Below are positions 40,989 through 47,275 of a stretch of 64,000 bases of DNA, piece after piece. How positions within the stretch are numbered: the first letter of the stretch is position 1; every line of letters begins with the position of its first letter. The position numbers were made by a program, and so were the translations under genes. Origin of the DNA: Melioribacter roseus (GTDB lineage Bacteria; Bacteroidota; Ignavibacteria; Ignavibacteriales; Melioribacteraceae); assembly GCA_020722005.1 (NCBI GenBank), contig DYLP01000010.1:1-64000 (forward strand). The letters run 5' to 3'. The notes beneath the pieces were generated by a model. The model worked only from the letters and a program-made list of their open reading frames with translations. It did no database searches and was not told the origin of the DNA.

Positions 40989-42365
40989 TTATTCAGAAGC
41001 GAGTTTTCTCTTCCACTTACGCAAAGCTTTATTAACTTCTTCGGGAGAAGTACTTCCTTCGGAGATTTTTTTCTTTATGCTGTTCAGTGGAGAGAGGAGC
41101 AGGTATAAATCTTTTTCGAATGCGGGAGAAAATTTTTTATATTCACTCAACTCGAGTTGATTTAATTTAATCCCCTTTTCTACACAATGTGCAACAATTT
41201 TCCCAACCATATGATGAGCTTCTCTGAAAGGCACATTCTTTCGTACGAGATAATCGAGCAGGTCAGTTGCAAGCGACAGATCTCCGGTTAATTCTTCCTC
41301 AAATCTGTCGGTTTTAAATTCTGTATGGTTGATCATGCTGGCTGCAATTTTTAAAGAATCTTTCGTTGTATCGAGTGCGGAAATTAAATGATACTTGTCT
41401 TCCTGCATATCTCTGTTGTAAGCCAGCGGAAGACCCTTCATTAAGGTTAAAATTCCGGTCAAAGCGGCGATAACTCTTCCTGACTTACCTCTTATCAGCT
41501 CGGCAAAATCAGGGTTTTTTTTCTGTGGCATCAAACTACTACCCGTTGCATACGTATCGTCTATTTGAGCAAACGCAAATTCGGAACTACTCCACAAAAT
41601 AAATTCTTCGGAAAGTCGACTTAAATTCATCATTATTATTGACATTGCCGAAATAAATTCGACAATAAAGTCCCTGCTGCTGACGGCGTCGATGCTGTTT
41701 TCAACAATACCTCCGAAGCCGAGCAATTTAGCAGCATAACTTCTGTCGATCGGGAGCGACGTGCCGGCGAATGCTGCCGCACCCAGAGGCGATTTGTCGC
41801 TCCGTTTCAAACAATCTTTTAATCTCTCTTTATCTCTTTCGAGCATTTCGATATATGCTATCAGATGGTGGTCAAAGAGTATAGGTTGTGCTCTTTGCAA
41901 ATGCGTATATCCAGGTATAACAGTGGTTTTATACTTTTCTGCTTTCTTCAATAACGATTTTTGTAAACCCACAATCAGGTTAATTAACAAGTTGATTTCT
42001 TTCTTCAGGAACAGTCGTTCGTCAAGTGCTACCTGGTCGTTGCGGCTTCGCGCTGTATGAAGTCGTTTGCCGACGTCCCCAATTTTCTGAACGAGTCGCT
42101 CTTCAATTGCCGAATGAATATCCTCTTTAGTCCAATCGATTTGATATTTGCCATTTGATATTTCATTACGTATTTCTTCAAGCGCCTTTACAATCTTTTT
42201 CGATTCGACAGCAGTAATAATTTTCTGCCTTGATAGCATTTTGACGTGTGCAATGCTACCGTCAATATCTTCATTATACATTCTTGAGTCGAGATCAATC
42301 GACGAAGAAAATTTCAAAGCTTCATCGTCCAGCTTCTTTTTAAAGCGACCGTTCCATACAGTCAT
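40989..42365 (-). CDS. argH: argininosuccinate lyase
   Basis: 458-residue ArgH, splitting argininosuccinate into arginine and fumarate. Signatures: DIHSAIEERL, HTARSRNDQ, PGYTHLQRAQP with the catalytic His155, and the mobile loop GSSLMPQKKNP (275-285) with Ser276. It ends the arg operon, 1 base after argG, and no other arg gene follows before the M13 peptidase gene. Full family length, all catalytic residues intact. Confidence 0.97.
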   Translation of the reverse strand: MTVWNGRFKKKLDDEALKFSSSIDLDSRMYNEDIDGSIAHVKMLSRQKIITAVESKKIVKALEEIRNEISNGKYQIDWTKEDIHSAIEERLVQKIGDVGKRLHTARSRNDQVALDERLFLKKEINLLINLIVGLQKSLLKKAEKYKTTVIPGYTHLQRAQPILFDHHLIAYIEMLERDKERLKDCLKRSDKSPLGAAAFAGTSLPIDRSYAAKLLGFGGIVENSIDAVSSRDFIVEFISAMSIIMMNLSRLSEEFILWSSSEFAFAQIDDTYATGSSLMPQKKNPDFAELIRGKSGRVIAALTGILTLMKGLPLAYNRDMQEDKYHLISALDTTKDSLKIAASMINHTEFKTDRFEEELTGDLSLATDLLDYLVRKNVPFREAHHMVGKIVAHCVEKGIKLNQLELSEYKKFSPAFEKDLYLLLSPLNSIKKKISEGSTSPEEVNKALRKWKRKLASE

Positions 42366-42366
42366 T

Positions 42367-43590
42367 TTACACCGTAATGTTTGTTTCGTTAGCTTTTTGT
42401 TCGACTCTGTTCATTGTTTTGTAAGGCAATCCGTAGATTTTAATAAATCCTTCTGAGGCTTTATGGTCAAACTGATCCTCAATGGTATAAGTTGCCAGCG
42501 ACGGGTCATACAAAGAGTAAGGGGACGTTCTACCGACTACTCTCATTGTACCTTTGTAGAGTTTAACTTTAACAAGACCTGTTACTTTTCCCTGGGTTTT
42601 ATCGACGAAAGCCTGGAGTGATTCTCTCAATGGAGTAAACCAGAGTCCATTATAAATAAGATTCGCAAATTCATGGGAGACGATACTCTTGTAATGCATA
42701 ACGGCTTTATCGAGAGTAAGTCTTTCGAGTTCGGTATGTGAAAAATGAAGAATCGATGCTGCTGGAGCTTCATAAACTTCGCGGGATTTTATTCCGACCA
42801 ATCGGTCTTCAATCATATCGATTCTGCCTATTCCGTGCTTACCTCCAATTTCGTTCAGATAATTAACCAGCTCTATTGGGTTTAACTCTTTGCCATCTAC
42901 TTTAACAGGAATTCCTTTTTCAAATTCGACCGTGATAGTTTCGGCGTAATCGGGAGCTTTTTCGGGTGAAACGGTATGGAGGAAGGCATCTTCAGGTGGT
43001 TCCTGCATTGGATCTTCGAGAATGCCGCATTCGATTGCCGTTCCCCAGATATTATCGTCAATGGAATATGGATTGTCCTTAGTAATTTTTACGGGGATAT
43101 TGTTTTCTTTCGCATATTCAATTTCTTCTTCGCGGGATTTAAACTCCCAGGTTCTCAATGGTGCAATACATTTTAGATCAGGGGCCAGCGCTCCGACAGA
43201 TACTTCAAATCTTACCTGGTCGTTTCCCTTTCCGGTGCAGCCGTGAGCTACCATAGTTGCATTTTCTTTCAGAGCAATCTCGACGAGTGATTTTGCCAGT
43301 AATGGTCGCCCAATTGCCGTTGCCATTGGATATGCATTTTCGTAGAGAGCGCCCGATCTAAGAGCGGGAAAAGCGTAATTGGTCAAGAATTCTTCCGTTA
43401 AATCTTCTATATAAACCTTAGAAGCACCGGATTTAAGAGCTTTTTCCTCCAATCCTACTAATTCTTTCGACTGACCCAGATTACCTGTAAAGGTAATTAT
43501 ATCGGCGTCGTAATTTTTTTTGAGCCAGTGAACCATTACCGATGTATCGAGTCCACCGGAATATGCAACAACTATTTTCTGTTTACTCAT
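42367..43590 (-). CDS. argG: argininosuccinate synthase
   Basis: 407-residue ArgG, joining citrulline and aspartate with ATP. ATP-pyrophosphatase loop SGGLDTS (11-17), [14 protein letters not shown], and the family's [14 protein letters not shown] region. It lies between argR and argH: 4-base overlap with the argR stop upstream and a 1-base gap to argH. The direct adjacency of a repressor gene inside the operon suggests self-regulated arginine control. No degenerate residues seen. Confidence 0.97.
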
Positions 43591-44051
43591 TTTTCTATTC
43601 CTAATAATGTTTTTAATTCTTCGACTACTTTTTTAATGTTCTTGATTGATTTTGGTATAACGAGAATTGTATCGTCTCCAGCAACCGTACCTAAAAGACC
43701 GGGAAGGTTTTCTTTATCAATTTGAATTGCTACTCCCTGAGCGCGCCCTAAAAATGTTTTTACCACAATCACACATTCATTAAAGTCGATAGACAGTACT
43801 TCTTCCGCTATGTAACTTTTAAGGGTGCTTTCGCCTCCTTCCTGATTAATTTGATATACAAGTCCATTTGGCGTGGGTACGCGCACCACTCCCAGTTCGT
43901 TCAAATCCCTGGAAAGAGTAGCCTGAGTAACTTTAATTCCTTTGCTTCTCAAAAGTTTACCCAGTTGCGTCTGATTAAATACTTCCTGCGAAGTAATAAT
44001 CGATTTAATTAATGAATGACGTTTTTGAATTTCCTCTAATTTCTTTCCCAT
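43587..44051 (-). CDS. argR: arginine repressor ArgR
   Basis: 154-residue ArgR. The N-terminal winged helix ends in the recognition element [14 protein letters not shown]; the C-terminal hexamerisation/arginine-binding domain contains the family [14 protein letters not shown], with the GDDT motif that binds arginine. The start at 44051 is chosen because AGGGA sits 6 bases before it; the earlier in-frame ATG at 44072 overlaps the argB stop and has no site. It is embedded in the operon it should repress, and the phased palindromes before argC (47170-47202) are its probable target. Confidence 0.93.
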
Positions 44052-44064
44052 AGTTTCCCTAAGT

Positions 44065-44913
44065 TTATTCATCGACTATTTCTGTTCCAACACCTTCTTT
44101 AGTAAAAATTTCGAGCAAGAGTGCATGAGGAATTCGGCCGTCGATAATGTGAACCTTTTTTACGCCGGCTTCGAGTGCTCTAAAAGCCGACTCGACCTTG
44201 GGAATCATACCGCCATTGATAATTCCCTCTTCAATCATTTTCTGAGCTTCCGAACGCGTTAAATGAGTCAAAAGTCGATCGCCGTCTTTGATACCTTCAA
44301 CATCGGTCAAAAATACCAATTTAGAAGAACTTACTGCACCGGCAATGTGACAGGCGGCTATATCAGCGTTTACGTTGTAAATTGTACCTCTGGCATCAAC
44401 TCCAACGGGAGCAATAACTGGCATATATCCGTCCTTCATCAGTTTTGAAAGAAGACGGTCATTAACATTTTCGATTTCACCAACCAATCCGAGATCCTCT
44501 TTCTCATACTTTTTTACGCCGAGCAAATTTCCGTCGATACCGCTAATTCCGACCGCTCTACCGCCGTGCATATTTATTCTTCTTACAATATCTTTATTAA
44601 TCTGTCCGGCAAGCACCATCTGAACTACGCCAATTGTATCCTGATCAGTATATCTTTGTCCGTTTATAAAATTTGTTTTTAGATTGAGTTTATTTGAAAG
44701 CGAAGTTATTTCTTTACCTCCGCCGTGAACAACAATTATATTGATACCAATCTTACGAAGCAGAGTTACATCCTGCGCAACCATCTGTTTAAGATTTTCT
44801 TCTTCCATTACGGCGCCGCCGTATTTAATAACGAAAGTTTTGTTTTCAAATTCCTGGATGTATGGCAGAGCTTCTACCAGTACATCTTCTTTTCTGAATT
44901 TAGGAAGTGTCAT
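44065..44913 (-). CDS. argB: acetylglutamate kinase
   Basis: 282-residue ArgB, phosphorylating N-acetylglutamate. It has the amino-acid-kinase KYGGAVM and HGGGKEI loops, GISGIDGNLL, NVNADIAACHIAGA and, near the end, GMIPKVESAFRALEAGVKKVHIIDGR. Overlaps argJ by 4 bases. Feedback inhibition by arginine would need an N-terminal helix; the protein starts directly at TLPKFRKEDVLVEALPYI, a short helix that may serve. All residues usual. Confidence 0.96.
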   Translation of the reverse strand: MTLPKFRKEDVLVEALPYIQEFENKTFVIKYGGAVMEEENLKQMVAQDVTLLRKIGINIIVVHGGGKEITSLSNKLNLKTNFINGQRYTDQDTIGVVQMVLAGQINKDIVRRINMHGGRAVGISGIDGNLLGVKKYEKEDLGLVGEIENVNDRLLSKLMKDGYMPVIAPVGVDARGTIYNVNADIAACHIAGAVSSSKLVFLTDVEGIKDGDRLLTHLTRSEAQKMIEEGIINGGMIPKVESAFRALEAGVKKVHIIDGRIPHALLLEIFTKEGVGTEIVDE

Positions 44914-46142
44914 GTTCTGTAGCTCCCGTTAATCTTAACATATTCTTCCGAAAAATCGCACGTCCAGTAATTGGCTTTTCCGTAGCCATCGTTCAATTTT
45001 ATCAATAATTCGATCTGCTCCGATTTCAAAGTTTTATTTGCTTCTTCAATCGAGAGCTTCACTTCATAGTTCTTGCCGAGGATGCAGGTTCCGTTAATAT
45101 AAATTTCGGTATCGTCAGGATAGAATGTGATACCAGAATACCCGACTGCTGCTAAAATCCTTCCCCAATTGGCATCTTCGCCGTGTACTGCAGTTTTAAC
45201 AAGAGGAGATTTAGCAACGCTGCGGGCGGCTTTCAATGCATCGTTATCATTTAGCGCTCCTTCCACTATTACTTCGATAAATTTTGTAGCCCCTTCACCG
45301 TCTTTAACAATATCGGTAGCGAGTTTTTTCATTACTTCGAACAAGGCATTTTCAAAAACCTGTGCACTAACGTCACCTTCTTTTATTTCCACTCCCGATA
45401 ATCCGTTTGCCAATGCAATCACCATATCGTTTGTACTTGTGTCGCCGTCGACTGTTATTCTGTTAAAGGTTCGGTCGGCTGTTTTCTTTAATAAATTTTG
45501 AAAATGACTTTTTTCAATCTGCACATCTGACGTAATAAACGCCAGCATTGTTGCCATATTGGGATGAATCATCCCGGAACCTTTTGCAATGCCACCGACT
45601 GTTCCAGTTTTCCCATTCACATCAAATTTTATCGAAGTAAATTTTGGGAAAGTATCTGTAGTCATAATTGCTTCGGCTGCTGCAATCCCCTCATCTTCGG
45701 AAAGGATATCAACTATCTTATCGATTCCTTTTCTTATCTTTTCCATCGGAAGCGGCTCGCCTATAACTCCTGTTGACGAGACGAATACTTCTTCTGGTTT
45801 AACATTCAATCTTGAAGCTGTTAAGAAAGCCATTTCGATTGCATCCCGCATACCTCGTTCACTCGTGCAGGCATTTGCATTGCCGCTGTTAACTATAATT
45901 GCACGAAATGTATCGTTTGAGATTAGATGCTTTTTAGATAGCAATACAGGTGCGGCTTGAACTTTGTTTTGAGTAAAAATAGCCGCTGCTGTAGCCGGGA
46001 CTTCAGACATAATAAGTGCAAGATCCTTTTTGTATCTCTTGATACCGCAGTGAATGCCTGCACTCAAAAAGCCAATCGGCGCAGTTATTCCGTGTTTCAT
46101 TTCTTTATCCGATGTTATTTCCAAATACTTGTTTTCATTCAT
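44910..46142 (-). CDS. argJ: bifunctional ornithine acetyltransferase / N-acetylglutamate synthase
   Basis: 410-residue ArgJ. It recycles the acetyl group from acetylornithine to glutamate (and may also use acetyl-CoA). The autocleavage site is the MATML motif with nucleophile Thr198, preceded by GIAKGSGMIHPN. Other family segments: NSGNANACTSERG, SSTGVIGEPLP, DGDTSTNDM and VKDGEGATKFI. Presence of argJ indicates the acetyl-cycle route; argA is not needed. It overlaps argC and argB by 4 bases at each end. Confidence 0.96.
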   Translation of the reverse strand: MNENKYLEITSDKEMKHGITAPIGFLSAGIHCGIKRYKKDLALIMSEVPATAAAIFTQNKVQAAPVLLSKKHLISNDTFRAIIVNSGNANACTSERGMRDAIEMAFLTASRLNVKPEEVFVSSTGVIGEPLPMEKIRKGIDKIVDILSEDEGIAAAEAIMTTDTFPKFTSIKFDVNGKTGTVGGIAKGSGMIHPNMATMLAFITSDVQIEKSHFQNLLKKTADRTFNRITVDGDTSTNDMVIALANGLSGVEIKEGDVSAQVFENALFEVMKKLATDIVKDGEGATKFIEVIVEGALNDNDALKAARSVAKSPLVKTAVHGEDANWGRILAAVGYSGITFYPDDTEIYINGTCILGKNYEVKLSIEEANKTLKSEQIELLIKLNDGYGKANYWTCDFSEEYVKINGSYRT

Positions 46143-47149
46143 AACAATCCCATTGTTTGCTCATAATTAAAAATTAAATTCATATTCTGAACAGCCTGAC
46201 CTGCAGCGCCTTTGATGAGGTTGTCAATGGCAGACATAATAATCAAATCATTACCAGCTGTGCTGAATCCGATATCACAAAAATTTGTATATGCAACATT
46301 TTTTATTTCCGGAATACCTTCTCCAAGCAATCGAACAAAGGGTTTATCCGAATAATATTTCTCATAAATTTTTTCAATATTGTGAACGTCAGTCGAATTA
46401 TTGATTTTGCAATGAATGGTCGTATAAATTCCTCTGGTAATCGGCATAAGATGCGGTACAAAAGTGAAAGAAGCAGCGATATTACCGAACTTTTGCAGAT
46501 AAAGATCGATTTCCGGAATGTGTTGATGATTACCAATTTTATACGCTCTTACATTTTCGTTGACTTCTGTGAAAATCATCGAGGGACTGACCGATTTTCC
46601 CGCTCCCGATGTACCACTGTATGAATTTATTGAAATAAAATCCGGATTGACAAGTTTTTCTTTCAGCAGTGGAATTAATGGCAGAAGAATGCTCGTCGGA
46701 TAACAACCGGGGTTGGCAACAATTTTCGCATTTTTAATTTCGTTTGAATTCCATTCGGGTAATCCGTAAACTGTCTCATCCAGCAATTCAGGTGTTAAGT
46801 GTTCGTGCTTATAATATTTTTTATAAAGATTCACATCCTTGAGTCGAAAATCGCCACCTATGTCAATTACTTTTACATTCTTTTTATACGCTTCCGAAAC
46901 AATCGATTGGGCTTCTCCAGAAGGAAGTGCAACAAACAAAACGTCAGTATTTTTTAGCGATGTCGCCTCAAAAGGGACAATTTCTTTTGAAAGCACATAT
47001 CTAAAAGACGGATGAACTTCGTCTATTTTCTTTCCAGCCGTTGAATAACCGAAGAGCTTATCTATTTTTACGCCCGGATGCCGCAGCAGCAGTTTAATCA
47101 ATTCCGCTCCCGAATACCCTGCAGCACCAGCTATCGAAACATTAATCAC
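46139..47149 (-). CDS. argC: N-acetyl-gamma-glutamyl-phosphate reductase
   Basis: 336-residue ArgC. NADP loop GAAGYSGAELIKLL (8-21), the catalytic Cys149 in ANPGCYPTS, and the family's HRHTPEI-like segment as GNHQHIPEIDLYL. First gene of the argCJBRGH operon. The start codon is GTG (47149) with GGAG 8 bases before it; the alternative internal starts lack a site. The operator candidate lies 21-53 bases upstream. argD and argF are not in this operon and not in the window. Confidence 0.95.
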   Translation of the reverse strand: MINVSIAGAAGYSGAELIKLLLRHPGVKIDKLFGYSTAGKKIDEVHPSFRYVLSKEIVPFEATSLKNTDVLFVALPSGEAQSIVSEAYKKNVKVIDIGGDFRLKDVNLYKKYYKHEHLTPELLDETVYGLPEWNSNEIKNAKIVANPGCYPTSILLPLIPLLKEKLVNPDFISINSYSGTSGAGKSVSPSMIFTEVNENVRAYKIGNHQHIPEIDLYLQKFGNIAASFTFVPHLMPITRGIYTTIHCKINNSTDVHNIEKIYEKYYSDKPFVRLLGEGIPEIKNVAYTNFCDIGFSTAGNDLIIMSAIDNLIKGAAGQAVQNMNLIFNYEQTMGLL

Positions 47150-47169
47150 TTATTTCTCCATTTTATAAA

Positions 47170-47202
47170 GCATAATTATACATAATTATGCATAATTATG
47201 CA
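47170..47202 (-). promoter_or_regulatory. candidate ArgR operator: three phased CATAATTAT(G/A) palindromes over a TATAAT box
   Basis: Three tandem 10-base units, CATAATTATA (47171), CATAATTATG (47181) and CATAATTATG (47191), each palindromic or nearly so; TGCATAATTATGCA (47189-47202) is a perfect 14-base palindrome. The period of 10 bases is one helical turn, which suits a hexameric repressor. ArgR boxes are AT-rich palindromes of this type in many bacteria. On the minus strand a TATAAT lies at 47180-47175 and TTGCAT 17 bases before it, so the sites overlap the promoter of argC. Inference, no binding data. Confidence 0.7.
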
Positions 47203-47275
47203 AATTTTTCATTCATTGTTTTTTAATTTTTTTATTTGAACAAATAATTCTTTTTTCATTACATCAATGGTTGTT

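Follow-up and report, generated by a model that had tools for sequence, protein, structure and literature searches.

An ARG-box pair within the argC promoter of Melioribacter roseus as the probable ArgR operator of argCJBRGH

Operator and promoter of the arginine operon

Upstream of the arginine operon argCJBRGH of Melioribacter roseus lies a repeated palindrome that is very probably the docking site where ArgR shuts off arginine synthesis. Judged from sequence and comparison, we consider it highly probable that positions 47169-47202 form the operator-promoter of this operon, with the two outer palindromic boxes as the operator and with repression by ArgR that would be autoregulatory. Binding by ArgR, the participation of arginine as a co-repressor, and the repressive effect itself are predictions. 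The DNA comes from assembly GCA_020722005.1 (contig DYLP01000010.1), of which positions 1-64,000, the whole stretch analysed, are referred to as the window.

Three palindromic units with centres 10 bp apart, as described in an earlier note on this DNA, are indeed present at 47170-47202, which reads GCATAATTAT ACATAATTAT GCATAATTAT GCA; Tandem Repeats Finder reports a period of 10 and 3.8 copies at 47170-47206. The exact triple CATAATTAT at 10-bp spacing occurred in 0 of 300 dinucleotide shuffles of the window, as did the exact pairs and the exact 14-mer (0/300 each). A perfect copy of the 14-mer, TGCATAATTATGCA, is confined to 47189-47202, copies with one and two mismatches lying at 47179-47192 and 47169-47182, respectively; genome-wide, 26 sites match it with at most two mismatches, versus 4 for the reversed pattern. 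Measured against TGNATWWWWATNCA, which we take to be the core of the ARG box, an 18-bp imperfect palindrome, box 1 carries no mismatch and box 3 carries one.

The layout is compact, the same letters serving operator and promoter. A TATAAT box and a TTGCAT element 17 bp apart, proposed earlier to overlap the palindromes, do so on the minus strand (Table 1), where a promoter scan also returned the overlapping variant TTTGCA-18-TATAAT. Between the operator-promoter and argC, which lies downstream on the minus strand, are 19 nt; the minus strand across operator, promoter, GGAG, and the argC GTG reads TTTGCATAATTATGCATAATTATGTATAATTATGCTTTATAAAATGGAGAAATAAGTG. Because the outer boxes contain letters of both the -35 and -10 elements, bound ArgR would exclude RNA polymerase: a repressor seated on both boxes would cover the two hexamers and block the enzyme.

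All six genes of the operon, in the order argC-J-B-R-G-H, score above NCBIfam cut-offs, and a genome search with PF01316 gave a single match, so that argR is the only Arg_repressor-family gene found. Its product aligns with 1f9n and 1b4a over both domains (winged-helix N-terminal domain and C-terminal arginine-binding domain with GDDT); in the comparison with AhrC 1f9n (E=2e-22), the GDDT motif and the DNA-binding domain are kept. Since argR is the fourth gene of the operon, repression is predicted to be autoregulatory, in agreement with the feedback that the earlier note had thought likely.

Table 1. Features of the argC operator-promoter, the argCJBRGH operon, and two further ARG-box pairs of the same genome (window positions unless a contig handle is given)
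Feature	Position	Strand	Remarks
-35 element TTGCAT	47198..47203	-	17 bp from TATAAT
Distal ARG box (box 1), TGCATAATTATGCA	47189..47202	-	holds most of the -35
6-bp gap TAATTA	47183..47188	-	makes two boxes look triple (middle unit 47179-47192)
Proximal ARG box (box 3), TGTATAATTATGCT	47169..47182	-	holds the -10 TATAAT
-10 element TATAAT	47175..47180	-	third letter of box 3 is T
Shine-Dalgarno-like GGAG	47156..47159	-	6 nt 5' of argC GTG start; read from sequence
argC	46139..47149	-	TIGR01850, 405.6 bits; first gene of operon; GTG start
argJ	44910..46142	-	TIGR00120, 501.6 bits
argB	44065..44913	-	TIGR00761, 258.6 bits
argR, presumed binder	43587..44072	-	TIGR01529, 139.6 bits, above cut-off; fourth operon gene
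argG	42367..43590	-	NF001770 / TIGR00032
argH	40989..42365	-	TIGR00838, 613.7 bits
ARG-box pair at proB	G000:C54:5369-5402 (L186)		18 nt upstream, 1 mismatch; conserved in sister species G001
lysW operon with ARG-box pair	G000:C17:10660-16639 (L055)		coordinates of the operon; pair with 3 mismatches

Conservation of a two-box architecture

Promoters of argC were gathered from the whole genomes and named contigs of relatives, which yielded 24 promoters of the operon type from 10 genera, including the uncultured Chlorobi CHB1 and one Ignavibacteriales MAG. The two outer boxes lie exactly 20 bp apart, centre to centre, in 24/24 of these orthologous promoters, and their mean genus-weighted information content per position (1.72 bits for box 1 and 1.61 bits for box 3) exceeds that of the 6-bp gap (0.95 bits) and of the flanks (0.60-0.70 bits). 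This constancy of spacing, together with the higher information content of the boxes than of the gap, points to two 18-bp boxes with a 2-bp spacer as the functional unit, and it supports the earlier proposal of a putative ArgR operator that overlaps the argC promoter on one helical face. Of the 10-bp spacing reported before, the unit centres stand, but the units kept in relatives are the outer two, 20 bp apart; as this is the spacing published for Streptomyces and Bacillus, the supposed departure from known operators finds no support. A search of the genome for pairs at 21-bp spacing returned two weak hits, with three mismatches each.

The middle unit consists mostly of letters that belong to the outer boxes. 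As TGCA, the half-site, is its own reverse complement, the inner halves of any pair at this spacing mimic a third box, and only the six gap letters can vary; in M. roseus these are TAATTA, which produces the apparent third palindrome. An exact TAATTA gap, and with it a perfect middle unit, occurs in only 5/24 promoters (other gaps are AGATAA, AGAAAA, and GAAAAG). The perfect triple is restricted to the genus of M. roseus, two of three g7 species, and one g12 species, and the middle unit is absent in the two most distant relatives, CHB1 and CG07. The third dyad is thus not conserved like the other two (0.95 versus 1.6-1.7 bits), and its symmetry is weak.

Two asymmetries between the boxes are those predicted by promoter selection acting on top of operator selection. 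All 24 promoters have T at alignment position 0, beyond the 14-bp box core, where it completes TTGCAT, whereas the mirror position 15 varies; the third position of box 3 (alignment position 23) is T in 24/24, giving TATAAT, where box 1 usually has C.

The middle unit and alternative readings

Pure chance as the origin of the middle unit is weakened by the gap letters. Across 23 target-genus groups, these match TAATTA at 4.17 of 6 positions, versus 2.75 for shuffled gap letters (p<0.001, a value that, like the others given here, is optimistic because the genera are related, some of the genomes also being incomplete). We consider it unlikely that ArgR recognises a true third ARG box in the middle unit, overlapping the other two as part of a ladder of TGCA half-sites read in two registers or by more than four DNA-binding domains. 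Such a ladder would account for the match to TAATTA beyond composition, seen at argC and, as an independent case, in 13 target-genus groups other than argC, for the recurrence of exact TAATTA in the lysW, gltB, and ilvD operators of relatives, for the 10-bp doublets of sister clades, where box scores peak 8, 18, 49, and 59 bp before the -35 (TTGACA), and for the paired doublets at two standalone argR genes (G009 and G022; see below). However, a perfect 12/12 box score was never reached by the middle unit in the 23 operator groups, compared with 15 for box 1 and 8 for box 3; the dyad symmetry of the gap is marginal (p=0.08 overall and 0.37 in non-argC operators), whereas AATT is strongly represented in it; CHB1 and CG07, the most distant relatives, do without the unit; and any score taken 10 bp from a box is raised by the letters in common. 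Nothing points to an ArgR hexamer seated on three boxes at once, as the third box would need the same two inner half-sites. The gap statistics are better explained by a minor groove of AATT type being favoured between the boxes than by a third recognised dyad, and the partial conservation of the gap most likely reflects a requirement that this groove be rich in AT and bendable. This AT-rich, partly palindromic filler, more conserved than the flanks, may have an auxiliary role.

Recent tandem duplication of 10 bp by slippage, which would confine function to two old boxes, would fit the narrow phylogenetic distribution of the perfect triple and the repeat reported by Tandem Repeats Finder. We regard it as very improbable, given that the constant length and 20-bp spacing in all 24 promoters reveal no expansion and that relatives display intermediate gap sequences at that same length, perfect gaps arising by substitution in a fixed frame. 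Least credible to us, by a little, is that a regulator other than ArgR, e.g., of the Lrp/AsnC type, reads the palindromes. The motif also precedes ilvD, gltB, trpE, and thrA, and Lrp typically occupies phased arrays on the upstream side of the -35; since E. coli Lrp classically acts at ilvD and gltB, the motif at those genes could be shared with a second protein. Against this, the operator is found both at argC and at standalone argR, its core TGNATWWWWATNCA matches what we take to be the ARG box, and most genomes lacking ArgR contain such sites at background level only.

The two-box ArgR operator remains the preferred reading, and the distribution of paired boxes is in line with it. Pairs at 20-bp spacing with at most two mismatches number 33 (control 3) in 14 ArgR-positive genomes, a count in which the argC sites are guaranteed, as most of these genomes were picked for having the operon, and which leaves about 20 other sites; 16 genomes without detectable ArgR hold 4 (control 0). 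The paired boxes are thus linked to operon-bearing genomes. In one relative (G079), argR stands apart from argC-J-B, and a near-identical operator-promoter lies directly upstream of it.

Comparison with known arginine operators

By its sequence, the argC site is the published two-box ARG operator design. The argC gene of Streptomyces clavuligerus is preceded by two 18-nt ARG boxes with a 2-bp gap (PMC3293853), and a 2-bp gap is called normal for Bacillus (PMC5839063). The argCJBDR operator of S. clavuligerus and the arg genes of S. coelicolor share the 20-bp distance between centres and an operon that includes argR, although they belong to a different phylum and the passage concerned does not describe a spacer that completes a middle palindrome (PMC3293853). 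ArgR operators of E. coli have a 3-bp spacer and 21-bp spacing (PMC6245113, PMC6640053); those of carAB P2, artJ, and artP likewise consist of two 18-bp palindromes on one face that overlap promoter elements, and at carAB P2 ArgR and RNA polymerase are mutually exclusive (PMC6245113, PMC6640053). The Melioribacter spacer, at 2 bp, is 1 bp shorter, and its boxes span both the -35 and the -10. On palindromes in tandem, ArgR uses four of its six subunits (PMC7248756). For AhrC of Bacillus subtilis, an ArgR-family protein like that of Melioribacter, a model has been presented in which a hexamer touches three ARG boxes at argC (PMC3293853); in that case the distance between two boxes is 11 bp and the third is inside argC, whereas the three units of Melioribacter overlap within 33 bp. 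The site extends a known repressor-operator design to relatives of Ignavibacteriales/Chlorobi; a literature search on ArgR in Ignavibacteria found nothing. More novel are putative helically phased ARG-type boxes upstream of the attenuator-controlled ilvD, trpE, and argC promoters.

A putative amino-acid regulon

Similar sites elsewhere in the genome, called for by the earlier note, were found: 20-bp pairs occur at proB, lysW, and, weakly, trpE, and those of relatives at argC, argR, lysW, gltB (genus g54), and ilvD, as well as at metY-like, aspartokinase, and aspartate-aminotransferase genes, the gene names at gltB, ilvD, and these further sites of relatives having been read from the sequences without family scans. 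Together, the related operators of the group appear to belong to a wider amino-acid regulon, and the comparison yields a candidate ArgR regulon that is open to experiment. Proline synthesis may be under ArgR control, given the pair at proB. The lysW-type lysine/ornithine operon comprises lysW, homocitrate synthase, lysX, lysY, a class II amidotransferase-like gene, lysZ, and lysJ/argD; its acetylornithine-aminotransferase-like gene may be the reason for its putative control by ArgR. Description of the lysW sites as 10-bp pairs was dropped once genera were added, the sites proving to be 20-bp pairs with a variable middle. Control of gltBDF in E. coli by ArgR, Lrp, IHF, and Crp (PMC1784095) makes glutamate synthase a precedent for the gltB sites of g54, which are a motif match alone.

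Upstream boxes and leader peptides

In sister clades, argC lacks a promoter-embedded operator; instead, a TTGACA promoter is preceded by ARG-type boxes whose phase is fixed, the best box of each promoter lying at 8, 18, 38-39, 49, 59-60, or 69 bp (Rayleigh R 0.91, uncorrected for relatedness). These promoters are followed by a short ORF with Arg codons clustered near its end, and at least three Arg are found in the last 16 residues in 18/24 cases. Examples of such ends are ...LRPRRPLLG, ...PRPRRRRPLLG, and ...FRPRLRRMPRRR, with the stop 45-90 nt before argC (L144, L051, L070, L074, L049, L048, L071, and L151), making the ORF a candidate arginine leader-peptide attenuator. Rfam at the gathering threshold returned no family in eight leader-type loci, and, at the level of titles and abstracts, no arginine leader-peptide attenuator of the sister-clade argC type was evident in the literature. 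Loss of ArgR by the sister genera with leader peptides was considered and rejected, as the gene is present in 11 of 14 genomes tested. The clades would differ by a switch between a promoter-embedded operator (20 bp, no leader) and upstream ArgR boxes combined with an Arg-codon leader peptide.

Boxes upstream of promoters with leader peptides are also seen in M. roseus. At ilvD, a perfect single ARG-type box (G000:C48:12582-12595; L225) lies 19 nt upstream of TTGACA-17-TATAAT, and the promoter is followed by a leader peptide ending in ...NLLGIINLIIINIISLVIILG, rich in Ile/Leu/Val. In several relatives, the ilvD promoter carries boxes in helical phase with the -35; several ArgR-positive relatives have no box at ilvD. 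At trpE, an ARG-type box (G000:C27:57507-57540; L228) lies 19 nt upstream of TTGACT, and a trp leader peptide, MNRNHWWWRRDISVISVIT (Trp-Trp-Trp), is accompanied by a terminator-like hairpin. This arrangement suggests that ArgR, or another protein that recognises this motif, may work together with attenuation at amino-acid operons. A broader proposal, tentative and in our judgement somewhat unlikely, is that ArgR in this order reads a 10-bp TGCA ladder and is a broad amino-acid regulator, repressing from inside the promoter at argC and probably activating from phased boxes 8, 18, 28-29, 38-39, or 59 bp upstream of the -35 at the attenuator-controlled ilvD, trpE, and sister-clade argC with its Arg-rich leader.

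Standalone argR genes of two genera (L135 and L136, in G022 and G009, respectively) are each preceded by two 10-bp-overlapping doublets 51 bp apart, a layout that suggests one hexamer bridging two sites.
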